From: Costus lasius | Taxonomy: Eukaryota; Streptophyta; Magnoliopsida; Zingiberales; Costaceae | NCBI GenBank assembly: GCA_027563935.2 | Contig: CM050451.1 | Span: 33,743,565 to 33,807,564, forward strand | Direction of reading: 5' to 3' | DNA: 64,000 nucleotides | Shown here: positions 3,604 through 60,301 of the stretch, piece after piece | How the letters are laid out: each line of letters opens with the position of its first letter | How positions within the stretch are numbered: the stretch's first letter is position 1 | Position numbers and translations under genes: made by a program | The notes under the pieces: model-generated | What the model was told of the DNA's origin: nothing | Seen by the model: the letters and a program-made list of their open reading frames with translations, nothing else | Databases searched by the model: none

Positions 3604-5573
3604 TGTTGGTGTATATGCCCTAGGACCTAGTTTTGGTCAACTTATGTACTACTTGACATTGATATTTATATATCATTCTGGCAATGTCGTTATCATTGTT
3701 TGTCTACACCTGCGATTGTGTACTTACATGATAATGTCCCTGGAGACAGATTGGATCTGTGCTCAAATAATCGTCCCCAGTCGATGTACCTGAGTGGATA
3801 TGGGACAGCTCTGGTACTTGTGAGACTGGTATGTGGGCTGGTTAGGCACGTGGTGCTAACGCAGACACATGGGTATATCATTGGAGGATATACTGGATAG
3901 ACCCGCTATGAGGCTATGACTTGGTGTCATGAGTTATCCTCATAAGTGACAGGAGATGCATTGATCCCTTGCCTTGAGGTCATTGATCATTCTATATGGT
4001 TAGGGACTTGCTTTGATACAACCTAACACCTTGCCGTAGCTGGGAGGTCATAACGGTTGTCATTGAGCATGTCACGACCCATATGAGAAGATCAATGGAT
4101 AGACATAGGATTTGCCCCTTCCCTAGGGAAGTATGATATCCATAGAGCTCCTTTATTATTCTATGACTGAGAGTGTATGGCCATACCCAGGTGAGAACCT
4201 GTTTTAGTCATAACCATGTGATTGGATGAAAACAAGTGGTGACACACTTGTCCAATCGGATATCAGTTCGGCAAAGAGACTGTAATGCATCTGTACCTAG
4301 TTGCGATGATGGGGATGTCGATGTCGATATCCATTCCAATGACCTGGGCAGCAGCGATGCACTGCTAGGTGCCACTCACTGCTTGTGATGACCTCTAGTC
4401 AGCACTACCAGCGTCAGAGGAACCTACAGGGTCGCACACCTTGATACTTGAGTTCTCGTATTGATCGGGAAGCCTTATGATCGAGTTATTGGATAACTCG
4501 GATCTAATTGGGAGATTTCATCAGCGCCAATGGGCCTGATGAGATGAAAGAATATTATTGGAGCCAAACTTTATTTTTGGCAGGTTGACCCGTATTTGAC
4601 CATGGTTGGTCACATTTGGATTAGGGTTGCATTGGATTGGATCCAAGTGCTTAATCAACCCATGTAATGAAGTTTGGGCTAGCTCATTATCCAATGAGGC
4701 CCAATAACAAGTTCTCATGGAGAGATGAGAGGCTAAAAGGGTATAATGGGGAGAAACATGAACCATTAAGCGCCTAGGGGCATAATGGGGTCATGTTGGC
4801 GCCTTTGCTTCATTATGGAAGTAAAGGGCACCTCCCCTCTCTTCCTTGGATGGAATGCATGCCTCTATGGCATTGCTTGGGGCGGAAGGCAAGGCCTTGG
4901 CGCACAAGGAAAGGCGTGGGGCACAAAAGGAATGGTTGAATGAGAATTATGGAAATGTCTTGGAGACTTTCCTTGTCTCAAACCTCCTCATCCTAGCCCT
5001 ACACTTGTCATGATCCTAGCCCTTACCCTAACCGCCTCTTGCTCTATAAATGTGACCCTAGTCGCCCCCTCTTGAGGATGATCAATCCTTGAAGGCGTGA
5101 ACACATCAAGAGGGCAAGAATAAGGGGCATTGGCGCAACCATCTTCTTCCATCAAATCCTAGCTGCAAGCTTCTTCCCTTCTTCCTCCTTTGGCGCAAGA
5201 GAAGTAAAGGCTTGGCGGCATTCTCCCTTTTCCTCTCTTCTTCATCAATTGGCGCTTCAACCTTGGAGGTGGCGCAAGCATTCAAGAAGAGAACTAAGGC
5301 TTGGATCTTCTTCCCGAGGCTAGCACCGAGCGTGGAAGAAGAGAACTCAAGAGATCCGTGTGTGTGAGACTGCAGAGGGCGCACACTTGGGCGCCTGCAT
5401 CGGCATCGCTCTACATTGCTCTTAAGGTATTTCCTAACTCATCGTGTCGACTACCTTGCTTGCGATCTTCACTGGGTTTTTGGGACCGGCCTGTTTCGGG
5501 GACATTCTTCCGCTGCGAAAAATGTATGTATATAACTCTGAAAATTGCAAAATGTCCCTGGGGTTTCCCAACA
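3604..5573 (+). mobile_element. 3' LTR of Cop-2 copy A1
   Basis: The LTR starts TGTTGGTGTATATGCCC after the polypurine tract and ends GGGTTTCCCAACA, about 1.97 kb, with TG/CA ends. The end is confirmed by the reversed A3 copy, where the same end abuts a primer-binding site at 60289-60300. A TATA-like box (CTCTATAAAT) at about 5042 fits the promoter. AAG/GTATTTCC at 5424-5434 is the splice-donor-like position seen in the other Cop-2 LTRs. GTATGGCCATAC at 4175-4186 is shared with Cop-1 LTRs. Small ORFs in this region are not genes. Confidence 0.85.
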
Positions 5574-7754: not shown

Positions 7755-8390
7755 GTTGACCTGAATTTGACCATGGTTAGGTCACATTTGGATTTGGGTT
7801 GCATTGGATTGGATCCAATGGCTTAATCAACCCATTCAATGAAGTATGGGCTTGCTCATTGACCAATGAGGCCCAATAACAACCCCATTGGCGCCTAAGG
7901 GGTATAATGGGGTGAAGTAGGCAAATTTGCTTCATTATGGAAGCAAATTGCGCCTAGCCCTAACCCTGGCCGCCCCTTGCTCTATATAAGTGGCCCTAGG
8001 CGCCCCCTCTTAGGTATTCTATTCCTTGGAGGCGTGAACACTAAAAGAAGCGAGAGCAAAGGGTGAAGGGCGAGAGCAAGGGTTCAATTAGCGCAACCCT
8101 TCTTCTTCCATCAAGCCGCAAGTGATCTTCTTCCTCTCCTTGGCGCAAGAGGGACTTCACCTTGGCGGCTTCTCCTTCTCCTCATCTTCTTCTTTGGTGC
8201 TTCATCCTTGGAGGTGGCGCAAGTCTTGAAGAAGGTGACAACGGCTTGGATCTTCTTCCCGAGGCTAGCACCGGGCGTGGAAGAAGAGGACTCGAGGCAT
8301 CCGTGTGTGTAAAACTGCAGAGGGCGCACGCTTGTGCGCCTATCACGACATCAGCCTCATCTTGCTTTAAGGTATATTATATCTCATAAA
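7755..8390 (+). mobile_element. 5' LTR remnant of Cop-2 copy A2
   Basis: Homologous to 4582-5430 of the A1 LTR, including the TATA-like box (CTCTATATAAG, near 7979) and the donor-like AAG/GTATATTA at 8369-8377. The first part of the LTR is missing, replaced by Gyp-1. The last ~150 bp of the LTR, the primer site and most of the leader are deleted: the sequence passes from just after the donor position into the distal leader. A2 could therefore not prime reverse transcription. Confidence 0.72.
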
Positions 8391-8975
8391 TAAATATCAA
8401 GTCTAGTAGCCTTCTAACGCGTAGCCCTCACTAAGCTATCGATCAATGGTGTTGTGAACTGTTTCCCACCCTCGTGGGACACACCCACTTATCTTTAGAA
8501 AGTGCGTGGTGGCAATGGTTTCCCCAGTCCATTTTAATCGGGGGCGCCTTCGCAAGGAAACTCGTTGGCCCTGGGCATAACGGTTAGGAATGGACTTGAC
8601 TAGAATTCCATATGTGCTGGGCACATGATGAAACTCTAGAGGCGTCGTTGAGAGGTTAGGGTTTCATGCTGTATCTAGCCCTCGCTGGACATGAAATGCC
8701 TAGACTGTCTCAATAAGGGGAATTGCTTGGAGCAATCAGCCAGCGTGCCTACCTTAGGAAGCATGGGTTACTTTGTGCATCTCATCCCACCCTCGTGGGA
8801 CGTGAAGCCTCATGTGGAATAAGGATCCCATCTCACTAGGAAGTCTTAAACTTCCCGATTACTTTGAGGGTTGTCAATTCAATTAAAATAGTGGGAGCCA
8901 TAATAATTTAAAACAAGTCCAGTTTAAATGATATGAAGTAGTACTAATCTGTTGTTTCTTGGTTATTGTAGAACA
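8391..8975 (+). other. Cop-2 copy A2 leader (distal part) with three hairpins and a splice-acceptor-like end
   Basis: Untranslated leader homologous to the reversed A3 leader. It has three short stem-loops with a CCTC loop: 8465-8478 (CCCAC/GTGGG), 8675-8688 (CTAGC/GCTGG) and 8786-8799 (CCCAC/GTGGG). It ends in a pyrimidine-rich stretch and TATTGTAG, immediately followed by AACAATGGCAACG, which holds the gag start. In Cop-1 the matching hairpins have different stem bases but keep pairing. Confidence 0.6.
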
Positions 8976-10033
8976 ATGGCAACGAACAATAGCGGTTGGT
9001 CACTGCGGTCTATCCTTGAGAAGGACAAGTTAGTTGGATCTAACTTGATGGATTGGTTTATGAACTTGAGAATTGTGCTCAAGCTCGAGAGAAAGCTCTA
9101 TGTCCTTGAGCAGCCCATTCCGAACCACTTCCATGCTCGGCCTCAGCGGCTGAGAAGGATGCTTATGATAAGCATCAGGCTGATACTTTGGAGGTTGCAC
9201 AATTGATGCTAACCAACATGTCGCCCGAGCTTCAAGGGCAATATGAATTGAAGAGTGCCTATGAGATTATTACTAATCTAAGACAGCTCTTTAATGAATT
9301 GGTTAGGCTCAATCCTCCTAAAGTTGACATTCAGTGTGTTGAGCCGAAAGGCTTGACCAAGGAACTGAAATTAAAGATGGAATGGATCAGGAACAATAAG
9401 TGCTATTCATGTGGAGGGCCACCTCATATGTTGAAGGACATGGTGCGACTTCAGAGTGAGATGCAGAGAGGCAAGGCTTCGTCTTCAAGATCAGGTATTT
9501 GTGTTACAGAAGTCAACCTTTCTACTTTTATGTCATGGGTATTGGATGCCGCATGTGGAGCTCATATTTGTACAAAAATGCAAGGGCTCAAGAAAAGTAG
9601 ATCGGTCCGGCCTGGAGAGATTGAACTACGGGTTGGAAACGGGGCACAGGTTGCTGTTGTTGCTGTAGGAGTTTTGACTCTCTCCCTACCTTCTAGACTT
9701 CTACTAGAGTTTGATAATTGCTATTATGTACCTTCGCTTACTAAGAACATTGTATCCATTCCTTGCTTGGCAAAGAAGGGATTTAAGTTTGAAATAAATA
9801 AGAACTCTTGTTCTTTTTCATTTGCAAATATGTTCTATGGGAAGGGTACTTTGTGCAATGGTGTATATGTGTTAGACATTGATAACTCTATTTGTAACAT
9901 AAATAACAAAAGGACCAAACTGAGTGGTTCAGTGGTGCTTTCCTATGGCATTGTCGCTTAGCCTATATAAACAAGAATCGCATTCAATAACTCCATGCAA
10001 ATGGGTTGTTAGATTCAAGTTCCTTGGAGGAAT
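8976..10033 (+). pseudogene. Cop-2 copy A2: gag and protease-like region, frameshifted
   Basis: The gag start is ATG at 8976 (MATNNSGWSLRSILEKDK), homologous to the Cop-1 gag N-terminus. A one-base loss near 9125 shifts the frame, and reading resumes from about 9188. The middle of Gag, present in B as roughly 100 codons, is absent here and also in A3. The zinc knuckle reads CYSCGGPPHMLKDM, with the last Cys replaced by Met. The protease site reads VLDAACGAHIC, where B has VLDTACGVHIC. A further frameshift near 9945 and a stop at about 9988 precede the insertion point of element B in the pre-integrase region. It continues at 19160. Confidence 0.85.
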
Positions 10034-10038
10034 TTGAT

Positions 10039-11739
10039 GTTGGGGTATGCCCTTAAGGCTAATGTTTGAGGCCTGTGGGAATGTAACAAGTATCATGTAA
10101 TAAACTATTATGTTTATAAAGGCATGGTTGTTATTCAGTTAGTTACATTGTCTGCTGCAATATATGTTCTTCTGAATAATGTCTCAAAGCTGTTCAGCTG
10201 GGCTGACATGCTGTTATGTCCTTAGTCGATGTATCTTGGTGAACATGAGACAACCTTGATATGGTTAAGACTAATATGTGTTCTGATCTTATAGGATGCT
10301 TCGAGCATGGAATAAGATGTAGACTCATGGGTACATGGGATGTACTGGACAGACCCTACTAGGATGTTCAGTTGTTTGTCACAACGTGAATATTCCTTGT
10401 ATAAGACAAGTGGCACATTTCCTCTGACTTGAGATCACTTGTGTTTTCTAAATGATGATTGTCATTATTTTGAGTTAGTTCAATATCATTTGAAACATAA
10501 TGATTATAGACTATCTTGGATGGTGAGCTTGAGTCAGGTTAGGGCACTAGTGATAGACATAGGATTGCCGTCTCCTTGTTTAAGGAGTGTGATGTTCTAA
10601 AGGGGCCCCCTGGATGAGATGATTGAGAGAGTGTATGGCCATACCCAGGTGACAGTGTTCATCTGATCTAATCATGCTCATCATATTGGAGTTACAAGTT
10701 TGACAGACTTGTCCAATAAGAACATCCAGTGGCAAAGGAAATATGTATGCTTTGTGAAATGATTCACACTTGTGCTATGGTTTGGGTGTAGTCTTGGAAG
10801 ACTCTTTCCTTTATATCGGGAGACAGTGATGTGTTGCTAGATACCCCTCACTGATCGTGATAATGTGAATTATCGTTACCGACATTTAAAGGAAACCCTT
10901 AGGGTCGCACAATTTGATGATATGGCTTACTTAAGTCAGATCGTGTGGACTGAATTGTTTGGGTTCAGTTTTAAGGGATTTAATCTCTGATTGTAAGTGA
11001 GATCTGGTCTGATCATGTTTGATTGATTAGGGCTTGAGATCGGTAAGCTTCGATTGAGAGAATGGATGCCAGATCGGTCAGATCAGGGGCATTAAAGAGA
11101 TCGACGGTTAGATCTAAAGCCTTAGGGTTTATTTGATCTAGGCCTTGTCGCTTGGCTTGGTTGGTTCTTAAACCGAACCAATTGAACCAGCTCACTAAAA
11201 GAGCGCTTGGTTCATAGGGAGAGGAGTGGGCGACGAGTTCACATAGCGTGAACGTTGGGATGAGGAGAGGTTACTATTTTTAGTAACCATGATCTCCATG
11301 TCGAGTGGGCACTCATCCGAAATAGAGTATTCTCTATTTTCGCCAATTCACTAATTCCTCTCGCAAGTTTTTCCTCTCGACTTGGTGTGCGGCGACGCTT
11401 GAAGGTTGAGGAGGATTCGGCCAAGGAGAAAGACATCTCTTTTCCCTTCATTCGACAAGGACCTCTTGGAACCTTGCTAGCACAAGGAGCACCAAGAGAG
11501 ATAGCAACATCATCTTGTGTGTGACGACAAGGAGAAGATCTACTTTGATCTTTGCTTCCAAGGAAACATCTTTCCATGGCGATGGTATGAATGTTTTCTT
11601 ATTGTTATCAAGTTGATCTTTTGCATGCGTATCGATCTTATAACCCTAATTCCGCAAGAGAATAATTTTTATGCGCCATATGCTCTAAGGGTTATGCTCC
11701 CCCATGAAGGGGACCCCCCTTATTTAAGGGGTTCTTTCA
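10039..11739 (+). mobile_element. 5' LTR of element B
   Basis: 1701 bp from TGTTGGGGTATGCCC to GGGGTTCTTTCA, followed after two bases by the primer site. It holds the palindrome GTATGGCCATAC (10633-10644) and, near its end, ATGGCGATG directly before GTATGA (11576-11590), the proposed first coding exon and donor. I do not see a clear TATA box, so the transcription start is not placed. Short ORFs here (for example 112 codons on the minus strand) are duplicated in the 3' LTR and are not genes. Confidence 0.93.
11576..11584 (+). CDS. proposed first coding exon of element B gag-pol (three codons, inside the LTR)
   Basis: ATG GCG ATG is followed at once by the donor-like GTATGA. Joined to the acceptor at 13533-13534, it gives Met-Ala-Met-Ile-Pro-Ala-Ala-Thr-Asn-Thr and then the gag frame with no shift. 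The same arrangement is seen in element C (41792-41800), the solo LTR (51394-51402, minus strand) and element D (61821-61829, minus strand). Cop-2 gag begins Met-Ala-Thr without an interruption. The exon is an inference; B also has an ATG at 13556 that could be used without splicing. Confidence 0.55.
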
Positions 11740-13534
11740 ACTGGTATCAGAGCAGGTTGAATGCATGTTATCTTGATTGCTTGATGATTTGCGTGATCCA
11801 TATATGCGAATGTATGCTTAGATCTTCAACATGCGAAAGTTACATGATGAAAATCTTGTCTATATGTTTATCTTGCGCATGTTAGTTGGCGCTTCTAAGT
11901 TGTAGTTTTCTTTTCAAAACTTATACACTTGCGCGACTAATGCTAGATCTAAAGACCTTACTGTAAACCCTTAGACGGGTTACTGGGGTTGATGTCACCC
12001 CCTAGGTTAGATCCAATCATGTCTGATCAGATCATCTGACAGCCTGAAAGGGTCGACCAGATAGCACCTTGGCGCAAGCCTATGGTGGCTATAGGTCGAC
12101 TGCAGACAGGTGTGTAGCGATGTCTGATTGAGACGATTAATGAACGCACCTGAGTTAGGCCCGGGGTCACTCCCGTTTGCCAGACCTCAGTGTGGTCGTT
12201 CAGCCCTAGCGCATGCATAGTTGACTTTTTGGTCGACTCGAGTCAGTTAGGACTTGGTGCATGCAAGGGCAGTGGATCTGACTAGGTTGGATGAGTGGAT
12301 CCCTAGTAATGGACCGTTGTAAGGTTGTAGGGCAAATAAGGAAAAATTAAAATTGATCCCATGGGGTTTTCGAAAATTTTAATTTTTATCATGGATCACA
12401 TGTTTGCTGATTTGATACATATGTTTGTCTATTTAGTCATATGTGGGCTGCCCATATTAATTGTGTGCTGTGCTGGGGCCTGCGTGCCTGTATTAAATTG
12501 TAAATTAATTATTGTGATCTGCGAATCACTGGGTTTTAATTTATAAATGTAAGTGACCTGCGTGTCACTCTTGTCTAGATAGTTAAATTTGTAATTTAAT
12601 TAGACAAGAGCACTGAGCACACTTGGCAGAGGCGCACGCAGCATGGCTGGACCAGGAGGGAGGTCTAGGGTTCGACCCTAGGACCTGGCGCATTTCCTGG
12701 TGGGCGCACCAGAGCTGCAGATGGCGCTTGGGTCCAGGTTTGGGCCAAATGAGCAGCAAAAGACCCATGAAAAGCAAGTGCAGTCTTAAGTTAGGTTAAG
12801 GTCTCACTAGGGCTATGGGCTTTTACCACATATGACACATGCTTTCTTTTATTGCATAAATATTAGAAATGCATGATAGATTTATCTTTTGCTATCACCA
12901 TAGGGATTGAATGATAGTAATAAAGATAAAAGACCGTTAAAATCCAACGCTAAAATATCAAGCTCGTAAGCCTTCTGACGCGAAACCTCACTGTTCTGAT
13001 TATCGTTGGAGCCGTGTTGTACCCACTCAGTGGGCACGTCCATCTATCTTCAGACGGTGCGGGATTACACCTGTGTGTTACAGAGCAGGGATTTATCCCT
13101 TCTCGTTGCTCAGCATAGCACATGGTGGTCCAGGGAGTAGGTCGGGTCAGCTTGACCGTGTAGTCTACATATGTGGCGCATATGGTAGCACATGGAGGCA
13201 GCCGTCTGTTGGGGTCAGAGATTGTGTTGTACCAACTCAGTTGGCACAGTCTGCTGGACTGCCCAGATGAAGGGGAATCGCACGGGTTGGCGATCGGCAG
13301 GGACTGCCTACCAGAAACTAGTGCTTGTACTCTCTGTGCATCTTATCTCGCCTGAGCGGGACGCGGAGACCAAGTATGAAATCTGGATCCCATCTCACTA
13401 AAAGAGTTCTACTCTTTCGGGCTGTTTTGCTGGATTTTTCACGCCTGATAAAATAGTGAGAAAAAGAATCTTTCTTAAGTCCTGATTGATTCTTATACAT
13501 TGATACTGACCTTGCTGTTCTTGCATTGTTGTAG
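11585..13534 (+). other. proposed leader intron of element B, holding the LTR end, primer site and hairpins
   Basis: The 1950-nt segment runs from GTATGA to a branch-like ACTGAC, a pyrimidine-rich stretch and TTGTTGTAG. It contains the last 155 bp of the LTR, the tRNA primer site and about 1.8 kb of leader without a convincing gene. Three hairpins lie in its distal part: 13022-13034 (CCCAC/GTGGG, loop TCA), 13232-13244 (CCAAC/GTTGG, loop TCA) and 13347-13360 (CTCGC/GCGGG, loop CTGA). Full-length genomic RNA would have to escape splicing. Confidence 0.55.
11742..11753 (+). other. primer-binding site of element B (initiator tRNA-Met)
   Basis: TGGTATCAGAGC lies two bases after the 5' LTR end. 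It is the standard plant copia primer site, complementary to the 3' end of initiator tRNA-Met. The same site occurs in C (41941-41952) and A3 (60289-60300, minus strand). Confidence 0.93.
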
Positions 13535-13555
13535 ATACCTGCAGCAACGAACACC

Positions 13556-16500
13556 ATGAACTTCAATGTGCGATCCCTACTGGAAAGGGAGAAGTTTGCT
13601 GGGCCAAACTTCTCTGACTGGTTTGGACACCTTAAGATCGTTCTTAAGGCAGAGAGGAAACTGTATGTCCTCGAGACGGCGATTCCGCCGCAGCCCGCTC
13701 CGAACGCCGCAAGGGCGGTTCGGGAAGCCTATGAAAAGCACGTCAATGATAGCATTGATGTCGCTTGCCTGATGCTAGCGTCTATGACGCCACCGCTGCA
13801 GCGTCAGCATGAGGATATGTCTGCTATAGACATGATAGCGAACCTCAAGATGCTGTATGCTGCACAGGCGAGGACTGAGCGCTATAATTTGACAAAGCTC
13901 TTCTTTCAGAGCAAACTGGCTGAAGGGAGCCCAGTGGGAGCTCACGTGCTCAAGATGATTGGGCACAAGGAGGCTCTAGAGAAACTGGGGCATACCATCA
14001 ACCAGGAGCTTGCTGTGGACATTATTCTACAGTCTCTCCCGCCTTCATTCGACGCGTTCATTATTAATTTTAATATGAACAAAATCGATTGTACTCCTGC
14101 AGAGCTGCTGAATATGCTCTTGACCACTGAGGAGACTCTGAAGGGTAAGCCTTCAACCTCTGTCTTGATGGTTCCTTCAAGGAACAAGAAGAAGGGGAAG
14201 AAGGGCAAGGCCCCGGTCAAGAATTACAGCAAGGCTCTGAAGCAGAAGGTGAAGCGGTCCAAGGAATACAGGTGTTTCCACTGTGGCCAGCTGGGTCACT
14301 GGAAAAAGGACTGTAAAGCGCTCCAAGGAGATAAGAGGGGAAGCTTTGCTTCTGGCTCAGGTATATTCGTGACTGAGGTCATGTTTTCTTCTTCTGTATC
14401 ATGGGTGTTGGACACTGCATGTGGAGTTCACATTTGTTCAAATGTACAGGAACTCAAGAGAAGAAGGCAGGTGGGACAGCATGAGGTGGACCTACGCGTT
14501 GGAAACGGGGCACGGGTTGCTGCTGTTGCTGTAGGAGACTACTTTATTTCTTTACCATCTGGACTTGTATTGGAACTGAACAGTTGTTACTTTGTTCCCA
14601 GTATAACTAAAAATATTATCTCCATTCCTGCTCTTGTCAGGAAGGGATTTTCCTTTGAATGCAATATTTCAAAGTGTGTTTTATCATTTGATAATATTGT
14701 TTATGCAACTGGTTCAATTAATAATGGGTTATTCATGTTGGACATGGAAAGTTCCATACATAATGTTGATATTAAGAAAGCCAAGTATGCTGATGACAGC
14801 ACCTTGCTATGGCATAGTCGTTTAGGCCATATAAACGAGAAACGCATTAAGCGGTTGCATGATCATGGACTGCTGGGATCATTCTCCTATAAGGAGATTG
14901 ATACATGCAAAGCTTGTTTGATGGGTAAAATGACGAAGTTTCCTTTTCCTCACAAAGGTCAAAGGGCTTCAGGTTTACTTGACCTTATACACAGCGATGT
15001 GTGTGGGCCTTTTAGTAAACATGCCAGAGGTGGCTATCAGTACTTCATTACCTTTACTGATGATTTCAGTAGATATGGGTATGTCTATCTGATGAGACAT
15101 AAAAGTGAATCTTTTGACAAGTTCAAAGAGTTTAAGAATGAAGTACAAAATCAGCTAGGCCGTAATATCAAGGCACTTCGCTCAGATCGAGGTGGTGAAT
15201 ACCTAAGTCATGCATTTACTGACTATCTAAAAGAGTGTGGGATTATCTCACAGCTCACTCCGCCTGGAACACCGCAATGGAATGGTGTGTCCGAAAGGAG
15301 AAATAGAACATTACTAGATATGGTTCGTTCTATGATGAGTCAGGCTACTCTTCCATACTCCTTTTGGGGTTTTGCACTGGAAACAGCTGCAAAGGTACTA
15401 AACCGAGTGCCATCCAAGGCAGTTTCAAAGACGCCATATGAGTTATGGTATGGGAAACAGCCAAGCTTGACATTTATCAGGATCTGGGGCTGCGAGGCTT
15501 ATGTCAAAAAGCTCGCCTCTGGGAAACTAGAGAGCAGATCTGACAAATGTATCTTTGTCGGTTACCCTAAGGAAACTAAGGGTTATTATTTCTACGACCC
15601 CAAAGAGAACAAGGTTTTTGTTGCTCGGACGGCCATATTTCTTGAGAAGGAATTTCTTCTGCAAGAGGCAAGTGGGAGAGAAATAAAGCTGGATGAGAAT
15701 CCAGAAGAAGGACAAAGTGACCAAGCACAGTTGGATGAGCCTGAGCCGGTAGAACAGGTTATTGAACAACCTGAGGCTCAGATATCACGGGAACCGCGAA
15801 GATCGGGTAGGATCCGTCGACAGCCTGAGCGCTATGACGGAGTCTACATCATTGATAATGATGAACCCCTTACTTATGCGGATGCGGTCAGTGGACCGGA
15901 GTCAGCGAGATGGCTTGAAGCTATGCGCGCCGAGATGGACTCCATGTCAGATAACCAAGTTTGGGATTTGGTTGATCCGCCTCCGGGAGTTATCCCTATA
16001 GGCTGTAAATGGATCTTCAAGAAGAAGATTGACATGGATGGTAACGTGGTTACCTATAAAGGCAGGCTAGTTGCGAAAGGTTTCAAACAAATCTACGGGA
16101 TAGATTATGATGAAACTTTCTCACCTGTAGCCATGTTTAAGTCTATTCGGATTCTTTTCGCGATAGCTGCATATTATGATTATGAGATTTGGCAGATGGA
16201 TGTGAAAACAGCTTTCCTTAATGGAAATCTGGATGAGGATGTGTATATGACACAACCAGAAGGTTTCACTAATCCAGCAGATCGTCATAAGATATGCAAG
16301 TTAAAGAAGTCTATTTATGGACTTAAACAAGCATCGAGAAGCTGGAACATTCGTTTTGATGAATCAGTCACTGAATTTGGTTTCATCAAGAACGAGGATG
16401 ACCCGTGCGTATATAAGAGGTTTAGTGGGAGCGTGATTATTTTCCTAGTCCTCTACGTCGATGACATCTTGATCATTGGAAATGACATTCCTGAAATGCA

Positions 16501-17437
16501 TGCTGTTAAAGCATGGCTGAGGAAATGTTTCCAGATGAAAGATCTAGGAGAAGCAGCCTATGTGTTAGGTGTGAAGATCTACAGGGATAGATCTAAGAGG
16601 CTTCTCGGGCTGTGCCAGAGTACTTACATCGATAAGGTCCTGGAGAGATTTCGCTTAGAGAATTCTAAGAAAGGATATCTTCCAGTCAGACATGGTCTGA
16701 ATCTTTCGAAGAGTCAGTGTCCACAAACACAGACTGAGAAAGATGAAATGAACAATACGCCTTATGCTTCGGCTATTGGTTCTATAATGTATGCGATGTT
16801 GTGTACTCGCCCAGACGTCGCTTACGGGTTAAGCGTGACCAGTCGTTACCAGAGTAATCCAGGTTTGGCGCACTGGATTGCAGTCAAGAACATCCTAAAA
16901 TATCTGCGGAGGACCAAAGATATGTTCTTGATATATGGTGGTCAGGAAGAACTCAGTATTGAAGGATATACTGACGCTTCGTTCCAGTCTGACCAGGATG
17001 ATTTCCGATCGCAATCAGGCTATGTTTTTAGCTTGAATGGAGGTGCAGTGGTGTGGAAAAGTTTCAAACAGTCAACTGTTGCTGATTCCACAACAGAAGC
17101 CGAGTATGTCGCAGCCTCGGAAGCATCCAAGGAGGCAGTGTGGATTCGTAAGTTCGTGAGAGAACTTGGTGTTGTTCCTTCGTGTGCAGATCCTTTGGTT
17201 ATCTTTTGTGATAACACTGGAGCAATCGCACAAGCAAAGGAACCACGGTCGCACCAGAAGTCCAAGCACATACAGAGACGGTTTCATTTGATCAGGGAGA
17301 TCATTGATCGTGGCGAGATCAAAGTATGCAAGGTTCATACAGACGACAATCTGGCAGACCCGCTTACCAAGCCTCTGGCGCAGCAGAAGCATGAGAAGCA
17401 CTGTAATAATATGGGTTTGAAGTTTTTCAACCATTAG
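13556..17437 (+). CDS. gag-pol polyprotein of element B
   Basis: An uninterrupted 1293-codon Ty1/copia polyprotein for copying the element through RNA. The Gag part (about residues 1-235) has a copia-type N-terminal domain. The zinc knuckle CFHCGQLGHWKKDC lies at 240-253. The protease site is D286-T-A, less usual than the D-S/T-G of the family. The pre-integrase zinc motif starts near WH 419-420. Integrase has D481, D544 and E580, the last two spaced by 35 residues as in the D,D(35)E family. Reverse transcriptase has YVDD at 967-970. RNase H has D1140 in YTDASF and E1181 in DSTTEAEY. The frame is open upstream to 13535, so a spliced start in the LTR would add ten residues. The stop at 17435-17437 is followed by the polypurine tract. 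Confidence 0.96.
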   Translation: MNFNVRSLLEREKFAGPNFSDWFGHLKIVLKAERKLYVLETAIPPQPAPNAARAVREAYEKHVNDSIDVACLMLASMTPPLQRQHEDMSAIDMIANLKMLYAAQARTERYNLTKLFFQSKLAEGSPVGAHVLKMIGHKEALEKLGHTINQELAVDIILQSLPPSFDAFIINFNMNKIDCTPAELLNMLLTTEETLKGKPSTSVLMVPSRNKKKGKKGKAPVKNYSKALKQKVKRSKEYRCFHCGQLGHWKKDCKALQGDKRGSFASGSGIFVTEVMFSSSVSWVLDTACGVHICSNVQELKRRRQVGQHEVDLRVGNGARVAAVAVGDYFISLPSGLVLELNSCYFVPSITKNIISIPALVRKGFSFECNISKCVLSFDNIVYATGSINNGLFMLDMESSIHNVDIKKAKYADDSTLLWHSRLGHINEKRIKRLHDHGLLGSFSYKEIDTCKACLMGKMTKFPFPHKGQRASGLLDLIHSDVCGPFSKHARGGYQYFITFTDDFSRYGYVYLMRHKSESFDKFKEFKNEVQNQLGRNIKALRSDRGGEYLSHAFTDYLKECGIISQLTPPGTPQWNGVSERRNRTLLDMVRSMMSQATLPYSFWGFALETAAKVLNRVPSKAVSKTPYELWYGKQPSLTFIRIWGCEAYVKKLASGKLESRSDKCIFVGYPKETKGYYFYDPKENKVFVARTAIFLEKEFLLQEASGREIKLDENPEEGQSDQAQLDEPEPVEQVIEQPEAQISREPRRSGRIRRQPERYDGVYIIDNDEPLTYADAVSGPESARWLEAMRAEMDSMSDNQVWDLVDPPPGVIPIGCKWIFKKKIDMDGNVVTYKGRLVAKGFKQIYGIDYDETFSPVAMFKSIRILFAIAAYYDYEIWQMDVKTAFLNGNLDEDVYMTQPEGFTNPADRHKICKLKKSIYGLKQASRSWNIRFDESVTEFGFIKNEDDPCVYKRFSGSVIIFLVLYVDDILIIGNDIPEMHAVKAWLRKCFQMKDLGEAAYVLGVKIYRDRSKRLLGLCQSTYIDKVLERFRLENSKKGYLPVRHGLNLSKSQCPQTQTEKDEMNNTPYASAIGSIMYAMLCTRPDVAYGLSVTSRYQSNPGLAHWIAVKNILKYLRRTKDMFLIYGGQEELSIEGYTDASFQSDQDDFRSQSGYVFSLNGGAVVWKSFKQSTVADSTTEAEYVAASEASKEAVWIRKFVRELGVVPSCADPLVIFCDNTGAIAQAKEPRSHQKSKHIQRRFHLIREIIDRGEIKVCKVHTDDNLADPLTKPLAQQKHEKHCNNMGLKFFNH

Positions 17438-17457: not shown

Positions 17458-19159
17458 TGTTGGGGTATGCCCTTAAGGCTAATGTTTGAGGCCTGTGGGA
17501 ATGTAACAAGTATCATGTAATAAACTATTATGTTTATAAAGGCATGGTTGTTATTCAGTTAGTTACATTGTCTGCTGCAATATATGTTCTTCTGAATAAT
17601 GTCTCAAAGCTGTTCAGCTGGGCTGACATGCTGTTATGTCCTTAGTCGATGTATCTTGGTGAACATGAGACAACCTTGATATGGTTAAGACTAATATGTG
17701 TTCTGATCTTATAGGATGCTTCGAGCATGGAATAAGATGTAGACTCATGGGTACATGGGATGTACTGGACAGACCCTACTAGGATGTTCAGTTGTTTGTC
17801 ACAACGTGAATATTCCTTGTATAAGACAAGTGGCACATTTCCTCTGACTTGAGATCACTTGTGTTTTCTAAATGATGATTGTCATTATTTTGAGTTAGTT
17901 CAATATCATTTGAAACATAATGATTATAGACTATCTTGGATGGTGAGCTTGAGTCAGGTTAGGGCACTAGTGATAGACATAGGATTGCCGTCTCCTTGTT
18001 TAAGGAGTGTGATGTTCTAAAGGGGCCCCCTGGATGAGATGATTGAGAGAGTGTATGGCCATACCCAGGTGACAGTGTTCATCTGATCTAATCATGCTCA
18101 TCATATTGGAGTTACAAGTTTGACAGACTTGTCCAATAAGAACATCCAGTGGCAAAGGAAATATGTATGCTTTGTGAAATGATTCACACTTGTGCTATGG
18201 TTTGGGTGTAGTCTTGGAAGACTCTTTCCTTTATATCGGGAGACAGTGATGTGTTGCTAGATACCCCTCACTGATCGTGATAATGTGAATTATCGTTACC
18301 GACATTTAAAGGAAACCCTTAGGGTCGCACAATTTGATGATATGGCTTACTTAAGTCAGATCGTGTGGACTGAATTGTTTGGGTTCAGTTTTAAGGGATT
18401 TAATCTCTGATTGTAAGTGAGATCTGGTCTGATCATGTTTGATTGATTAGGGCTTGAGATCGGTAAGCTTCGATTGAGAGAATGGATGCCAGATCGGTCA
18501 GATCAGGGGCATTAAAGAGATCGACGGTTAGATCTAAAGCCTTAGGGTTTATTTGATCTAGGCCTTGTCGCTTGGCTTGGTTGGTTCTTAAACCGAACCA
18601 ATTGAACCAGCTCACTAAAAGAGCGCTTGGTTCATAGGGAGAGGAGTGGGCGACGAGTTCACATAGCGTGAACGTTGGGATGAGGAGAGGTTACTATTTT
18701 TAGTAACCATGATCTCCATGTCGAGTGGGCACTCATCCGAAATAGAGTATTCTCTATTTTCGCCAATTCACTAATTCCTCTCGCAAGTTTTTCCTCTCGA
18801 CTTGGTGTGCGGCGACGCTTGAAGGTTGAGGAGGATTCGGCCAAGGAGAAAGACATCTCTTTTCCCTTCATTCGACAAGGACCTCTTGGAACCTTGCTAG
18901 CACAAGGAGCACCAAGAGAGATAGCAACATCATCTTGTGTGTGACGACAAGGAGAAGATCTACTTTGATCTTTGCTTCCAAGGAAACATCTTTCCATGGC
19001 GATGGTATGAATGTTTTCTTATTGTTATCAAGTTGATCTTTTGCATGCGTATCGATCTTATAACCCTAATTCCGCAAGAGAATAATTTTTATGCGCCATA
19101 TGCTCTAAGGGTTATGCTCCCCCATGAAGGGGACCCCCCTTATTTAAGGGGTTCTTTCA
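17458..19159 (+). mobile_element. 3' LTR of element B
   Basis: About 1702 bp, read as identical to the 5' LTR except for one extra A near 17500. It is followed by the second copy of the TTTGA target duplication at 19160-19164. The proposed mini-exon and donor are also present at the matching place near 18996-19005. Confidence 0.94.
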
Positions 19160-40288: not shown

Positions 40289-41938
40289 TGTTGGGGTATG
40301 CCCTTAAGGCTAATGTTTGAGGCCTTGGGTTATTATCAGTATCATGTATAAACTATGTTTATAAAGGCAATGGTTGTTATTCAGGTTGTTGCATTATCTG
40401 CTGCTATATGTATACTTCTGAATAATGTCTCAATGGTGTTCAGCTTCGCTGACATGCAGTATAGTCCTTAGTCGAGATATCTTGGTAAACATGAGACAGC
40501 CTTGATATGATTGAGACTAATATGTGTTCTAATCTTATAGGATGCTTCGAGCATGGAATAAGATGTAGACTCATAGGTGCATTGGATGTACTGGACAGAC
40601 CCTACTTAGGATATTTAATTGCTTGTCACAATGTGAATAATCCTTATATGCAAACAAGTGGCATATTTCCTCTGACTTGAGATCACTTGTGTTTCTAAAT
40701 GATGATTGGCATTATCTTGAGGTAGTTCAATATCATTTTTGAAATATAATGGTTATAGATTATCTTGGATGATGAGCATGAGTCATGTTAGGGCACTAGT
40801 GATAGATATAGGATTGCCTTCTCCTAGTTGGAGTGTGATGTTCTAAAGGGGCCCCCTGTATGAGATGGTTGAGAAAGTGTATGGCCATACCCAGATGACT
40901 ATGTTCATCTGATCTAACCACTCTCATCATGTTGGAGTTACAGGCTTGACACGCTTGTCCAACGAGAACATCCAGTGGCAAAGGAAACACATATGTCAAG
41001 TGAATTGGATTCACACTTGTGCTATGGTTTGGGTGTAGTCTTGGAAGACTCTTTCCTTTATATCGGGAGACAGTGATGTGTTGCTAGATACCCCTCTCTG
41101 ATCGTGATAACGTAAGTTATCATTATCGACATTTAAAGGAAACCCTTAGGGTTGCACAATTTGATGATATGGCTTACTTATGTCAGATCGTGTGGACTGA
41201 ATTGTTTTGGTTCAGTTTAAAGGAGTTTAAACTCTGATTGTAAGTGAGATCTGGTCTGATCATGTTTGATTGATTAGGGCTTGAGATCGGTAAGCTTCGA
41301 TCGGGAGAATTGATGCTTGATCGATGAGATCAAGAGCATCAAGAGATGTGTGGTTAGATCTTGAGCCATCTGGTTCATATGAGATCTAGACCATGTCTTG
41401 GTTTGATTTGGTCTTTGAACCAAAGTCAATTGAACCGGTTCACTTATGTGAACGCATGGTTCAATTAAAGGGGGCGTTTTGATTGGTTCACTAAGCGTGA
41501 ACGTATGAAGTCATGACTTACTATTTTTGGAAGCCATGACACTTCCCCACGAATAGAAACCGCCTCAACGCCTCTCTCGCCTTAAGCTCTCTCGTGTGTC
41601 TCGTCTCCACGAGGGTGAAAGAAGGTATTCGGCCAGCCAAGAAAACATCTGATCTCCTTCACGCAAAAGGGATACCTTGAAAATCTTTGCTAGCACAAAG
41701 AACACAAGGGAGGAAGCCATCGCCATCTTGTGTGCGTCCACTTTGGAGGAGAGCCGCATCGCCCTCTTGCTTCCAAGTCGCCATCCAAACAATGGCAACG
41801 GTAAGATCACAACTTGATCTTTGCAAGTTTTAAGTTGATCATATATTCATGCCACATGCGATCCACATGAAACCTAAAGTTTCCGCCCATGCAAAATTTT
41901 AGAAGTGCATGCGTTTAGGGTTTCACCCCCCTCTTTCA
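40289..41938 (+). mobile_element. 5' LTR of element C
   Basis: 1650 bp from TGTTGGGGTATGCCC to CCCTCTTTCA. Compared with its 3' partner and with B, at least four changes are C to T or G to A in this copy (TTTAAT for TTCAAT near 40610; CATTATCGAC for CGTTACCGAC near 41122; GGTTGC for GGTCGC near 41150). These changes are typical of methylated cytosine decay. It holds the proposed mini-exon ATGGCAACG at 41792-41800. Confidence 0.92.
41792..41800 (+). CDS. proposed first coding exon of element C gag-pol (Met-Ala-Thr)
   Basis: ATG GCA ACG is followed directly by the strong donor GTAAGAT. Joining to the acceptor at 43715-43716 yields Met-Ala-Thr-Ile-Pro-Ala-Ala-Thr-Asn-Thr-Thr-Gly-Phe-Asn-Val and then the gag frame. 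In C the codon matching the ATG of B at 13556 is ACA (43738-43740), and no other ATG lies near the gag start. The LTR ATG is therefore the likely start. Cop-2 gag also begins Met-Ala-Thr. Confidence 0.62.
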
Positions 41939-43716
41939 ATTGGTATCAGAGCTGCGTTATGGCATGATCTTATATGATTGCTTTTTGTGTGATCCATGTA
42001 TGCGTTGAATAGATCTAAACCTAAACATCATGCGAAACTACATGTTAGTCTTTAGATGTATGTTTTTGCTGTTGGCGCATGTTGAAGATTTTTGTCAAAA
42101 CTTAACATCTTGCGCGCCATCCACTTAGATCTATAAGCGCCTACTTGAAATACTTAGACGGGTTACTAGGGTTGAAGTCATCAGTCTAGTCTGGACCCAA
42201 CAGCCTGATCAGACCATCTGACAGCCTAGATGGGTCGACCAGATAGCACCTATGCGCAAGCATGAGGTGGCTATAGGTCGACTGCAGAAAGGCGTGTAGC
42301 GATGTCTGATTGAGGCGACTAGTGAACGATCATGATTAAGGCCCGGGGTCACACCCGTTTGCCAGAAATCATGTTGGACGTTCAGCCCTTAAGGCATGCA
42401 TTGTTGACCATGAGGTCGACGCAAGTCAATTATGACTTGGTGCATGCAAGGGCAGTGGCTCTGACTTGGTCTGATGAGTGGATCCCTATTAATGGACCGT
42501 TGTAAGGTAGTAGGGCACATAAGGAAATAAAATTGATACCATGGGGTTTTTCAAAATTTTATTCTCCTGTTTGGATCACATGTTGCTTGTTTAACCTGAT
42601 TAGGTGTCTATTTCATCTTATGTGGGCTGCCCTATTTATATGCTGTGCTAGGGCCTGCGTGCCTGGATTAATTAATTGTAAATTATTTTTGTGATCTGCG
42701 AATCACATTACAATTTATGTTAATGTGTAATTGACCTGCGAGTCAAATCATGTCTAGATAGATTAAATGTAACTTAATCAGACATGAGCACAGAGCACAC
42801 ATGGCATAGGCGCATGCAGCAAGTGACTTCAGCAAGTGGGAGGTCTAGAGTTTGACTCTAGTACAGGCGCATGCTACCTGGTGGGCGCATCTGAGCTGCA
42901 GAGGGCGCTTGGGCCCGGGCTGGGCCAGATGAAATGCAAAAGACCCATGAAGAGCTCAAGTGAAGACTTGTGTAAAACTAGGGTCTTACTTAGGCTTAAT
43001 GGGCGTTTACCACATAAGATCATTGTGCTTTCTATTTACTGTTTAAGTAATATTAGCACCTGCATGATTTATCATTCTTCTATCACTATAGGATATGCAT
43101 GGTAGTAAGAAGATAAAAGGACCGTTAAAATCCAACGTTAAATATCAAGCACGAAAGCCTTCTGACGCGAAACCTCACTGTTCTGACTATCGTTGGGGCT
43201 GTGTTGTACCCACTCAGTGGGCACGCCCAGCTATCTTCAGACGGTGTGTGATTACACCTACGTGTTACAGAGAAGGGATTTATCGCTTCTCGTTGCTCAG
43301 CATAGCACGTGGTGGTCCAGGGAGTAGGTCGGGTCAGCTTGACCTTGTAGGCTACATATTGAGCATATGTTAGCTATATGGAGGCAGCCATCTGCGGAAT
43401 CAGAAACTGTGTTGTACCAACTCAGTTGGCACAGTCTTCTGGATTGCCTAGATGAAGGGGAATCGCACGGGTTGGCGATTGGCATGGATAGCCTACCAGT
43501 GATTAGTGCTTGAACTCTCTGTGCATCTTATCTCGCTTGTGCGGGACGCGGAGACCAAGTATGAAATCTGGATCCCATCTCACTAAAAGAGTTTTACTCT
43601 TTCGGACTGTTTTATTGGATTTTTCAGTCAGATAAAATAGTGAGAAAAGAATCATTCTTAAGTCCTGGATTGATTCTAACATCGATACTGACCTTGTTGT
43701 TCTTGCTTTGTTGTAG
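41801..43716 (+). other. proposed leader intron of element C
   Basis: 1916 nt from GTAAGAT to TTTGTTGTAG, with branch-like ACTGAC about 28 nt before the AG and a pyrimidine-rich stretch between. It contains the LTR end (to 41938), the primer site and the leader. Hairpins lie at 43209-43221 (CCCAC/GTGGG), 43417-43429 (CCAAC/GTTGG) and 43532-43545 (CTCGC/GCGGG, loop TTGT where B has CTGA). Confidence 0.6.
41941..41952 (+). other. primer-binding site of element C
   Basis: TGGTATCAGAGC, two bases after the 5' LTR end, complementary to initiator tRNA-Met. Confidence 0.93.
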
Positions 43717-46700
43717 ATTCCTGCAGCAACAAACACCACAGGGTTCAATGTGCGATCCTTACTGGAAAGGGAGAAGTTTGCTGGGCCAAACTTCTCAGAC
43801 TGGTACGGACACCTTAAGATTGTTCTTAAGGCTGAGAGGAAGCTGTATGCCCTTGAGACGGCAATACCGCCTCAACCCGCTGCGAACGCCGCAAGGGCGG
43901 TTCGGGATGCTTATGAGAAGCATGTCAATGATAGCATTGATGTTGCTTGCCTTATGCTTGCGTCTATGACGCCAGAGCTACAGTGTCAGCATGAGGATTT
44001 ATCTGCTATTGAAATTATAGCAAATCTCAAGATGCTGTATGCTGCACAGGCAAGGACAGAACGCTATAACTTGACAAAACTTTTCTTTCAGAGCAAACTG
44101 ACTAAAGGAAGTCCAGTAGGAGCTCACGTACTCAAGATGATTGGGTACAAAGAGGCTCTAGAGAAACTGGGACATACCGTCAATCAGGAGCTTGTTGTAG
44201 ACATCATCTTGCAGTCTCTCCCGGCCTCTTTCGATCCGTTCATCATTAATTTTAATATGAACAAGATCGACTGTACACCGGCAGAGTTACTGAACATGCT
44301 CTGTACTACAGAGCAGACTCTTGAGAAGGGAAAGCCTTCATCCTCTGTCTTGATGGTTCCTTCAAGGAACAAGAAGAAGGGGAAGAAGGGCAAAGCCCCT
44401 ATCAAGAGCTACAACAAGGCTCTGAAATAAAAGGTAAAGCGGTCAAAGGAATACAGATGTTTCCATTGTGGCCAGTTGGGTCACTGGAAAAAGGACTGTA
44501 AAGCGCTCCAAGGAGATAAGAAGGGAAGCAAGCCTTTCGCTTCTGGCTCAGGTATTTTCGTGACTGAAGTCATGGTATCTTCTTCTATTTCATGGGTGTT
44601 GGACACTGCATGTGGAGTTCACATTTGTTCAAATGTACAGGAACTCAAGAGAAGAAGACAGGTGGGACAGCATGAGGTGGACCTACGAGTTGGAAACGGG
44701 GCACGGGTTGCTGCTGTTGCTGTAGGAGTATATCACATCTCTTTACCATCTGGTCTTGTATTAGAACTGGACAATTGTTATTTTGTGCCGAGCATAACTA
44801 AGAATATTATCTCTATTCCTGCTCTTGTCAGGAAAGGGTTTTCCTTTGAATGCAAAACTTTAAAGTGTTGTATTTCATTTGATAATATTGTTTATGCTAC
44901 TGGGTCGATTAACAATGGGTTATTCATGTTGGACATGGAATGTTCTGTACAACAAATTGATAATAAGAAAGCCAAGTATGCTGATGACAGCACCTTGCTA
45001 TGGCATAGTCGTTTAGGCCATATTAACAAGAAGCGCATTAAGCGGTTGCATGACCATGGACTGCTGGGATCATTCTCCTATGAGGAGCTTGATACATGCA
45101 AAGCTTGTTTAATGGGCAAAATGACAAAGACTCCTTTTTCCAACAAAGGTCAAAGGGCTTCAGGTTTACTTGACCTCATTCACAGTGATGTGTGTGGGCC
45201 ATTTAGTAAACATGCCAGAGGTGGCTATTCATACTTCATTACCTTTACTGATGATTTCAGTAGATATGGTTATGTCTATCTTATGAGACATAAGAGTGAA
45301 TCTTTTGACAAGTTCAAAGAGTTCAAAAATGAAGTACAGAATCAGTTAGGCCGGAATATCAAGGCACTTCGATCAGATCGAGGTGGAGAATACTTGAGTC
45401 GAGAGTTTACTGACTATCTGAAGGAGTGTGGGATTATCTCACAGCTCACTCCGCCAGGAACACCGCAATGGAATGGTGTGTCCGAGAGGAGAAATAGAAC
45501 CTTATTGGATATGGTTCGTTCAATGATGAGTCAGGCTACTCTACCTTACTCCTTTTGGGGATTTGCACTGGAAACAGCTGCAAAGGTACTAAACCGAGTG
45601 CCATCCAAGGCCGTTTCAAAGACTCCATATGAGTTATGGTATGGGAAACAGCCGAGCTTGACATTTATTAAAATCTGGGGTTGCGAGGCTTATGTTAAAA
45701 AGCTCGCCTCTGGGAAACTAGAGAGCAGATCTTATAAATGTATCTTTGTCGGTTACCCTAAAGAAACTAAGAGTTATTATTTCTACGATCCCAAGGAGAA
45801 CAAAGTATTTGTTGCTCGTATGGCTATTTTTCTTGAGAAGGAATTTCTTCTGCAAGAGGCCAGTGGGAGAGAAATAAAACTGGATGAAAGTCCAGAAGAA
45901 GGACAAAGTAGTCAAGCTCAGTTGGATGAGCCTGAGCAAATAGAACAGGTTGATGTTCAACCTGAGGCTCAGATATCACGGGAACCGCGAAGATCGGGAA
46001 GGATCCGTCGACAGCCTGAGCGCTATGACGGAGTCTACATCATTGATGATGAACCCCTCACTTATGCGGATGCGGTCAGTGGACCGGAATCAGCAAGATG
46101 GCTTGATGCTATGCGAGCCGAGATGGACTCCATGTCAGATAACCAAGTCTGGGATTTGGTTGATCCGCCTCAGGGAGTAATCCCTATAGGCTGTAAGTGG
46201 ATCTTCAAAAAGAAGATTGACATGGATGGTAACGTGGTTACCTATAAGGGCAGGCTAGTTGCGAAAGGTTTCAAACAAATCTACGGAATAGATTATGATG
46301 AAACTTTCTCTCCTGTAGCTATGTTCAAGTCTATTCGGATTATTCTCGCGATAGTAGCATATTATGATTATGAGATCTGGCAAATGGATGTGAAGACCGC
46401 TTTCCTTAATGGAAAACTAGAAGAGGATGTGTATATGACACAACCTGAAGGTTTCATCAATCCATCAGATCATCATAAAATATGCAAATTAAAGAAGTCC
46501 ATTTATGGACTAAAACAAGCATCTAGAAGCTGGAATATTCGTTTTGATGAATCAGTTTGTGAATTTGGTTTCATCAAAAATGAAGATGACCCGTGTGTAT
46601 ATAAGAGGTTTAGTGGGAGCGTGATTACTTTCCTAGTCCTCTACGTCGATGATATCTTGATCATTGGAAACGATATTCCTGAACTGCATGCCGTCAAAGC

Positions 46701-51247: not shown

Positions 51248-51248
51248 A

Positions 51249-57532: not shown

Positions 57533-58600
57533 TTTTCCCTAATAAACAAGTCTCACATGTATCAAGTTCCTCCAAGGAACTCGAATCTAACAACCCATTT
57601 GGATGGAGTTGTCGAATGCGATTCTTGTTTATATGGGCTAATCGACAATGCTGTAGGAAAGCACCAACTGAACCACTCAGTTTGGTCCTTTTATGTTACA
57701 AATAGAGCTAACCATCTCCAAGACATGCGGACCATTGCACAAAGTACCCTTCCCATAAAACATATTTGCAAAAGAAAAAGAACATAAGTTCTCTTTTGTT
57801 TTAAACCTAAATCCTTTCTTTGCCAAGCAAGGAGTTGATACAATATTTTGGTAAGGGAAGGTACATAATAGCAATTGTCTAGCTTTAACTGAAGTCCAGA
57901 AGGCAGGGAGAGAAACTCCTACAGCAACAGCAGCAACTTGTGCCCTGTTACCTATCCGTAGGTCAATCTCTCTAGGCCTTACCGATCTATCCTTTCTGAG
58001 CCTTTGCATATTTGTACAAATATGAGCTCCACATGAGGTATCCAATACCCATGTCATAGGAGTAGAAAGGTTGACTTTGGTAACATAAATACCTGAGCAT
58101 GAAGACAAGGCCTTGCCTTTCTTCTCCTCATTCTGAAGTTGCAACATGTCCTTCAACATGTGAGGTGGCCCTCCACATGAATAGCACCTATTATTCCTGA
58201 TCATATCCATCTTTAATTTCAGTTCCTTGGTCAAGCCTTTTGGCTCAACACACTGAATATCAACTTTAGGAGGATTGAGCTCAACCAATTCATCAAAGAG
58301 CTGCCTTAGATTAAAAAAATCTCAGAGGCACTATTCAATTCATATCACCCTCTAAATTCAGGTGACATGTTGGTTAGCAACCTCCAAAGTATCAACCTGA
58401 TGCTTATCATAAGCATCCCTCTCAGCCGCTGAGGCCGAGCATGGAAGTGGCTTAGGAAAAGGACGCTCAAGGACACAAAGCTTCCTTTTGAGCTTGAGCA
58501 CGATTCTCAAGTTCATATACCAATCCAGTAAGTTGGATCTAGCCAACTTATCCCTTTCCAGGGGAGATCGCAGTGACCAACTGCTATTGTTCACAGCCAT
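57533..58600 (-). pseudogene. Cop-2 copy A3: gag and protease-like region, broken
   Basis: The gag start is at 58600 (MAVNNSSWSLRSPLERDKLA). The N-terminal part runs to a stop near 58358. The rest (58288-57677) has LNPPKVDIQCVEPKGLTK, the knuckle CYSCGGPPHMLKDM, with the final Cys replaced by Met as in A2, and the protease site VLDTSCGAHICTN. As in A2, the central Gag segment present in B and C is absent. Pre-integrase sequence with RLAHINKNRIRQLHPNGLLD follows in other frames. Confidence 0.83.
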
Positions 58601-60288: not shown

Positions 60289-60300
60289 GCTCTGATACCA
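60289..60300 (-). other. primer-binding site of Cop-2 copy A3
   Basis: On the minus strand the LTR end CCCAACA is followed by TGGTATCAGAGC, complementary to initiator tRNA-Met. This fixes the Cop-2 LTR end. Confidence 0.9.
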
Positions 60301-60301
60301 C

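Follow-up and report, generated by a model that had tools for sequence, protein, structure and literature searches.

The window analysed here is a stretch of 64,000 nucleotides from Costus lasius (contig CM050451.1 of assembly GCA_027563935.2, positions 33,743,565 to 33,807,564), and it holds a nest of Ty1/copia long terminal repeat (LTR) retrotransposons in plant DNA. Two full-length elements of a family named Cop-1, B and C, are present, together with a solo LTR of the same family and the 3' LTR (D) of a further copy; Cop-2 is a related family. Comparison of these copies supports the view that the gag-pol gene of Cop-1 begins within the LTR, in a short coding exon that ends at a splice donor, and that the acceptor lies at the gag frame. 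The features in question are listed below.

10038..11739, plus strand: 5' LTR of element B, 1702 bp, 100% identical to 17458-19159
11301..11575, plus strand: candidate exon 1 of B ahead of the start codon, free of ATG; the transcription start is assumed about 30 bases past CTATTTTT (11274)
11576..11584, plus strand: start and first three codons of B (Met-Ala-Met), ATGGCGATG, in the LTR, followed by GTATGA
11585..13534, plus strand: candidate leader intron of B, 1950 bases, GTATGA...TTGTTGTAG
11742..11753, plus strand: primer binding site of B, TGGTATCAGAGC, an exact match, within the candidate intron
13504..13534, plus strand: acceptor region of B, with branch-point-like TACTGAC, a pyrimidine-rich stretch and TTGTTGTAG; the acceptor TACTGACCTTGCTGTTCTTGCATTGTTGTAG ends at 13534
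13535..17437, plus strand: exon 2 of B, one open gag-pol frame with gag, zinc knuckle, integrase and reverse transcriptase (RT)
17458..19159, plus strand: 3' LTR of B, identical to the 5' LTR over 1702 bases
40289..41938, plus strand: 5' LTR of element C, 99.5% identical to the 3' LTR at 47646-49293
41792..41800, plus strand: start and first three codons of C (Met-Ala-Thr), ATGGCAACG, in the context AAACAATGGC, in the LTR, followed by GTAAGA
41801..43716, plus strand: candidate leader intron of C, 1916 bases, GTAAGA...TTGTTGTAG
41941-41952, plus strand: primer site of C, within the candidate intron
43717..44430, plus strand: exon 2 of C, gag frame, ended by an in-frame TAA at 44428-44430
51.3-52.9 kb, minus strand: solo LTR of Cop-1, with target duplication TAGGG
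51387..51402, minus strand: unit in the solo LTR, ATGGCCATG/GTATGAA (reads ATGGCCATGGTATGAA)
61.7-63.4 kb, minus strand: LTR D, belonging as 3' LTR to another Cop-1 copy that extends beyond the window
61814..61829, minus strand: unit in LTR D, ATGGCTTTG/GTATGAT (reads ATGGCTTTGGTATGAT)

The LTRs have TG...CA ends, the primer site adjoins the LTR, and the insertions are flanked by target duplications of about 5 bp (TTTGA on both sides of B, GTGCG for C and TAGGG for the solo LTR), as is typical of Ty1/copia elements. The domain order of the B polyprotein is likewise that of Ty1/copia: gag at 36-204, zinc knuckle at 247-261, integrase core at 484-580 and RVT_2 at 807-1051. B is very young, since its two LTRs match at all 1702 bases; its gag-pol frame is open. 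Its primer site TGGTATCAGAGC presumably matches the initiator methionine transfer RNA (tRNA). The stop codon of C at 44428-44430 lies late in gag, just ahead of the zinc knuckle, despite the 99.5% identity of the LTRs; B is open at this position.

According to the initial annotation, an ATG and two further codons in the LTRs of B and C are followed directly by a donor. This is the case in both, at 11576-11584 (GTATGA) and 41792-41800 (GTAAGA), and the further claim that the solo LTR and D keep ATG-GCN-NNN/GTATGA holds as well. The unit is kept in all four independent LTRs that have a complete tail, or in six of six if both LTRs of B and C are counted. Two more LTR pieces were excluded from these counts, since their tails lie outside the window or are unrecognisable.

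2-1054: LTR piece A, cut by the window edge, not scorable for the unit
55410-56551: LTR piece X, with no recognisable tail, not scorable for the unit

The four LTRs are 86-93% identical over their first 1180-1270 bases or so, and identity then drops to 53-62% between pairs in the final part, where the alignment of the B, C, solo and D tails spans 485 columns, 131 of them invariant. This drop (11240-11739 in B, and the matching tails) points to an R-U5 part of the LTR that has been exchanged or that changes fast. The tail rows hold 10, 6, 7 and 7 ATGs, and the single ATG common to all four is that of the unit. Nine bases after it stands the donor GTA, which is the sole invariant GTA in the tail alignment. 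Codon 2 is GCG, GCA, GCC and GCT across the four LTRs, always alanine, and variation within the unit is confined to the third base of this codon, codon 3 and donor position +4. The sole change in the donor hexamer, from GTATGA to GTAAGA in C, retains the donor and loses the TGA stop. At the level of sequence, the significance of the unit comes from this four-LTR comparison; the motif by itself is not rare.

Candidate exon 1 differs from its surroundings in its content of ATG. Directly 5' of the unit, the four LTRs have ATG-free runs of 278, 256, 272 and 284 bases, which begin shortly past a common C(T/C)ATTTTT; the LTR parts further upstream hold 43-48 ATGs in 1250 bases or so. A fixed stretch of 250 bases has no ATG in any of the LTRs, against 2.34, 1.96, 2.14 and 2.25 expected from dinucleotide shuffling. 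The probability of finding none is 0.059-0.081 per LTR, and the product of 2e-5 overstates the case since the rows are related. The candidate introns contain 50 ATGs in B, 51 in C and 56 in the minus-strand copy of Cop-2. With so many ATGs in the way, ribosomes that scan the unspliced RNA would be unlikely to get as far as gag.

The proposed joins, 11584 to 13535 in B (MAMIPAATNTMNFNVRS) and 41800 to 43717 in C (MATIPAATNTTGFNVRS), are in frame in both elements, as the initial annotation had stated. Splice sites were scored with approximate, rounded plant matrices. With these, the acceptor ranks first among 148 AG sites in B and among 146 in C, and it is also first among the sites with a branch-point-like CTRAY (18 in B, 16 in C). 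The donor is first within the LTR in both elements (of 19 sites in B and 17 in C), third of 143 overall in B, and first of 134 overall in C. At sequence level, therefore, the elements have a donor in the LTR, an acceptor before gag and conservation of both between copies, which is what an intron upstream of gag would require.

The head of exon 2 points in the same direction. B has an ATG at 13556-13558, in frame 21 bases past the acceptor, and C, as originally claimed, has ACA at the corresponding site (43738-43740). The first in-frame methionine in exon 2 of C is codon 80, within the gag domain. The seven codons (21 bases) from the acceptor to the B ATG hold two differences between B and C, both synonymous (ATA/ATT and ACG/ACA). 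Exon 2 aligns free of gaps between the two elements over its first 300 bases, with 6, 5 and 26 mismatches at codon positions 1, 2 and 3, respectively; gaps are present in the leader. By our own reading, 14 of the 27 gag relatives extend into the N-terminal segment, and 8 of these 14 start with Met-Ala, similar to the predicted spliced Cop-1 product.

A homologous leader intron, with an LTR donor of its own, is indicated in Cop-2. The initial annotation made use of the gag start of this family only and overlooked the intron.

58605..60447, minus strand: candidate leader intron of the Cop-2 minus copy, 1843 bases, with LTR donor AAAG/GTACTT and acceptor TTGTTGTAG
60300-60289, minus strand: primer site of the minus copy, inside the candidate intron
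58598..58600, minus strand: start codon of Cop-2 gag (AACAATGGC), located in exon 2, four bases past the acceptor
8370..8373, plus strand: donor AAG/GTATAT of the Cop-2 plus copy, exon end at 8371
8972..8978, plus strand: exon-2 head of the plus copy, AACA and ATG, directly after TTATTGTAG
5424..5428, plus strand: donor AAG/GTATTT of a third Cop-2 LTR

AAG/GTA is found near the LTR end in all three Cop-2 LTR copies, with the first intron bases at 60447 (minus strand), 5427 and 8372, and TACTAATCTGYTGTTTCTTGGTTRTTGTAG/AACAATGGC stands at two Cop-2 gag heads. In the minus copy, the donor ranks first of 20 within the LTR and second of 124 overall, and the acceptor second of 148, by the same approximate matrices. 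The gag start that had been given for Cop-2, Met-Ala-Thr, is correct for one of two copies; the other has Met-Ala-Val.

Cop-1 and Cop-2 align across the acceptor at 59-61% identity, and in that alignment Cop-2 ATG GCA ACG AAC faces B GCA GCA ACG AAC. Since the Cop-2 start codon aligns with GCA in Cop-1, the start codon seems to have moved from exon 2, where it lies in Cop-2, into LTR exon 1 in Cop-1. The simplest history would be a leader intron with a start in exon 2, followed by the gain of an ATG in exon 1 and the loss of the old one. The inner ATG of B (13556) is most simply a derived change and not the old start, because neither Cop-2 copy has an ATG at the site of B ATGAAC, one of them has Ser-Gly there, which resembles Thr-Gly of C, and B differs from C at five of these six bases.

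The Cop-2 plus copy is rearranged at 8372-8400, where the LTR is joined, about 20 bases past the donor, directly to the 3' portion of the leader, so that the primer site and a large part of the leader are absent.

It is probable, in our view, that Cop-1 gag-pol starts in the LTR, that a leader intron is removed to join this start to the head of gag, and that the start in exon 2 is the ancestral state. The anatomy of the elements, the conservation of the unit, the frame of the joins and the alignment at the acceptor are direct observations, and the following scheme is proposed to account for them. Transcription would start about 270 bases upstream of the LTR ATG. Exon 1 would have no earlier AUG and would end in ATG-GCN-NNN, and the phase-0 donor right after the Met-Ala-X codons would be joined to the acceptor where the gag frame begins. 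About 1.9 kb would be spliced out, and with it the primer binding site and around 50 AUGs. In spliced form the RNA would be the message for a gag-pol product that begins Met-Ala-X-Ile-Pro-Ala-Ala-Thr-Asn, and would offer no site from which to prime reverse transcription. Left unspliced, the RNA would be the genome, hardly readable into gag by scanning. Message and genome would form separate pools, and the start codon would have changed its place in the direction given above. The initial annotation inferred the same division of tasks; here it is drawn from the location of the primer site, within the intron, and from the many AUGs of the unspliced leader.

A stricter version of the scheme has, by our estimate, an even chance of being right. 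According to this, Cop-1 would be unable to make Gag-Pol from genomic RNA, so that splicing would be obligatory and the split between message and genome a strict, one-way one. Every LTR, including solo copies, would then be a portable promoter with a phase-0 first coding exon (Met-Ala-X) that could be spliced to host genes.

The unspliced unit is itself a short open reading frame (ORF), a point overlooked in the initial annotation that raises ribosome shunting as a rival explanation. In this case, the LTR ATG would open a short ORF (Met-Ala-X-Val-stop) near the cap. Ribosomes would then bypass the structured leader, as they do in plant pararetroviruses, and begin gag at its head or close to it, perhaps on a codon other than AUG. 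Such a four-codon ORF is present in three of the four LTRs (MAMV, MAMV and MALV), the leader is long and rich in AUGs, and C has ATT right after TTGTTGTAG; rice tungro bacilliform virus (RTBV) is described as having a similar short ORF (UCA AUG GCU) and an AUU start at the landing site (PMC5902531). However, the short ORF of C has 13 codons. Folding, with one minimum-energy fold each for B and C, yields one long-range stem of 13 pairs in B (11363-11375 with 13587-13599) and one of 8 pairs in C (41541-41548 with 43769-43777), but the 5' arms of these stems lie far ahead of the short ORF and their 3' arms within gag, at the margins of the folded stretch or close to them, and in neither fold is the interval from the short ORF to the gag head closed by a stem. 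Shunting also leaves unexplained the best-ranked acceptor with its branch-point-like motif, as well as the arrangement in Cop-2, where the LTR donor has no ATG and the gag AUG lies just past the acceptor. This explanation is not favoured, and we regard it as very unlikely.

Alternatively, gag translation might truly begin at the B ATG at 13556, on unspliced RNA or on a transcript from an internal promoter, with C being dead and the LTR motif incidental. This ATG is in frame 21 bases past the acceptor and the B frame is open, and C, with its in-frame gag stop, may indeed be dead or may have been moved by the proteins of another copy. Yet 50 AUGs would precede 13556 in the unspliced leader, the ATG appears most simply as derived in B, the seven codons upstream of it differ between B and C only synonymously, and neither the conservation of the LTR unit nor the lack of ATG ahead of it would be explained; such a start is unlikely. 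The ATG-GC...GTA block could also be kept for another role of the RNA or DNA, for example packaging, dimer formation, priming or promoter function, with the splice signals a coincidence. Several tail blocks, one of them a hairpin, are equally conserved. The block nevertheless varies at the wobble position of codon 2, at codon 3 and at donor position +4, and this explanation accounts neither for the depletion of AUG upstream nor for the ranking of the acceptor and its alignment with Cop-2; we consider it very improbable.

Splicing of the leader, which we prefer to these explanations, has several points against it. It is predicted from DNA sequence, the splice matrices are approximate and rounded, and the comparison covers two full-length copies and four scorable LTRs, all within the window. 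Two GT sites in the B leader (12109 and 12548) score above the B donor, and the C LTR has a second fair donor at 41624. The introns have 30-31% T compared with 21-29% in the exons, a modest excess that is weaker than the 24-point difference in T content reported for BARE1 (PMC3735527). Codon 3 of the unit varies (Met, Thr, Met and Leu). In the tail alignment, 24 of 471 windows of 15 columns are at least as conserved as the unit, mostly around TTGCTAGCACAA, TTGTGTG and AAGTTGATC, and because several other blocks are equally conserved, conservation alone is not the whole argument. A loose motif search gave 22 matches with up to 3 mismatches where 19 were expected, which is at chance, and loose motif counting was dropped as evidence in favour of the aligned comparison. 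The presumed exon 1 of Cop-2, counted from the TATA box, holds 3, 1 and 0 ATGs, so that it is not AUG-free in two of the three copies. Lastly, a spliced retrocopy was not found in the window with two patterns on both strands.

The LTR tail has further conserved features. AAGTTGATC, at 11610-11618 and downstream of the donor, is conserved in all four LTRs. At 11472-11487 in B, and at the same place in C, the solo LTR and D, lies the hairpin CCTTG-CTAGCA-CAAGG, with palindromic GCTAGC at the loop; the C version has CTTTG/CAAAG, a paired change. This GCTAGC hairpin of the LTR exon looks like a candidate dimer-initiation (kissing-loop) element. GCTAGC in the Cop-2 LTRs sits in a different stem.

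Elsewhere in the window, CCCCGGCAATGGCGCCA is found at 5790-5830, with related pieces near 5820-5923 and at 20.5-20.8 kb; we take it to be the complement of a tRNA-Asp primer site, from a gypsy element on the minus strand. Repeated units resembling ACGGTACCGTG and ACGGCAGTGCCGTATTT occupy 7100-7510, and at 50944-51249 a unit of about 155 bases is repeated in tandem, its two copies sharing 97% identity. A piece of a Tub-family gene is present at 30696-31430, and its top named matches are monocots, at 85% to Ensete and 85% to Elaeis, among the best 120 of 2181 matches; by this evidence the host is probably a monocot. In viral contigs, no relatives were found by gag search or by LTR pattern.

Several reverse-transcribing elements are known to use splicing. 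Foamy virus has a donor in the R region of the LTR, and the env and src mRNAs of Rous sarcoma virus (RSV) use the gag AUG and a few codons; in both, Gag itself is made from unspliced RNA, unlike in the scheme proposed for Cop-1. Foamy virus Pol is reported to be made from spliced RNA (PMC7828637). Among Ty1/copia elements, BARE1 of barley and EVD of Arabidopsis are described as using spliced and unspliced RNA for different tasks, with the spliced RNA being translated (PMC3735527, PMC8892269), and EVD unspliced RNA is reported to be strongly enriched in nuclear fractions (PMC8892269). In these elements the intron is placed near the end of gag or within it and yields a Gag-only RNA, whereas the Cop-1 candidate intron lies upstream of gag, ends at its head, holds the primer site, and has the start codon on its LTR side. 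The Ty3/gypsy element Ogre is likewise a plant LTR retrotransposon that is partially spliced (PMC6317226); its intron lies between the protease and RT frames, a position different from that in Cop-1. Of the intron-bearing elements of plants, a 2025 review singles out Ogre and EVADE alone as notable (PMC12786077).

A similar arrangement is that of Diaspora, a Ty3/gypsy element of soybean, on which the work is reportedly by Laten and colleagues. It has a long leader, with predicted donors in the LTR and acceptors that flank the gag start (PMC1142308). Unlike in Cop-1, the splicing of Diaspora was only predicted, and the available text of that paper describes neither a conservation test nor a start codon in the LTR; according to its authors, as of 2005, neither retroviruses nor LTR retrotransposons were known to have an intron upstream of gag (PMC1142308). 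A later report of such an intron was not found in the open-access literature, which excludes most subscription journals and was searched in part with weakly worded queries.

The principle of splicing a start exon onto a distant frame has a precedent, by analogy, in another kind of reverse-transcribing element, RTBV, where a short ORF of the leader is spliced to ORF IV (PMC5902531). This virus differs from Cop-1 in that it is a pararetrovirus, the splice serves P4 and not the capsid/polymerase frame, and it takes place outside any LTR. In Echinococcus, RNAs initiated in ta-TRIM solo LTRs are reported to be spliced onto neighbouring genes (PMC4558846). In contrast to Cop-1, ta-TRIM elements are small and non-autonomous, and no start codon in the LTR exon is described in the available text (PMC4558846). 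Two other candidate precedents were set aside: centromeric retrotransposons, for which a term search of PMC3059260 gave no support, and spliced isoforms in sunflower, which are described in the available text as short gag RNAs and not as leader-spliced (PMC7730604). As judged from the sequences, an intron upstream of gag with a start codon in the LTR is very likely real, and would be a new variant of spliced retroelement expression.

How retroelement RNA is divided between translation and replication has been called a major question (PMC3735527). If the scheme proposed for Cop-1 is true, this division is written in the DNA, since splicing would create the message and simultaneously remove the primer site. 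If it is confirmed, the long leaders of other plant elements would merit the same test, and the solo LTRs of Cop-1 would be candidate first exons for host genes.

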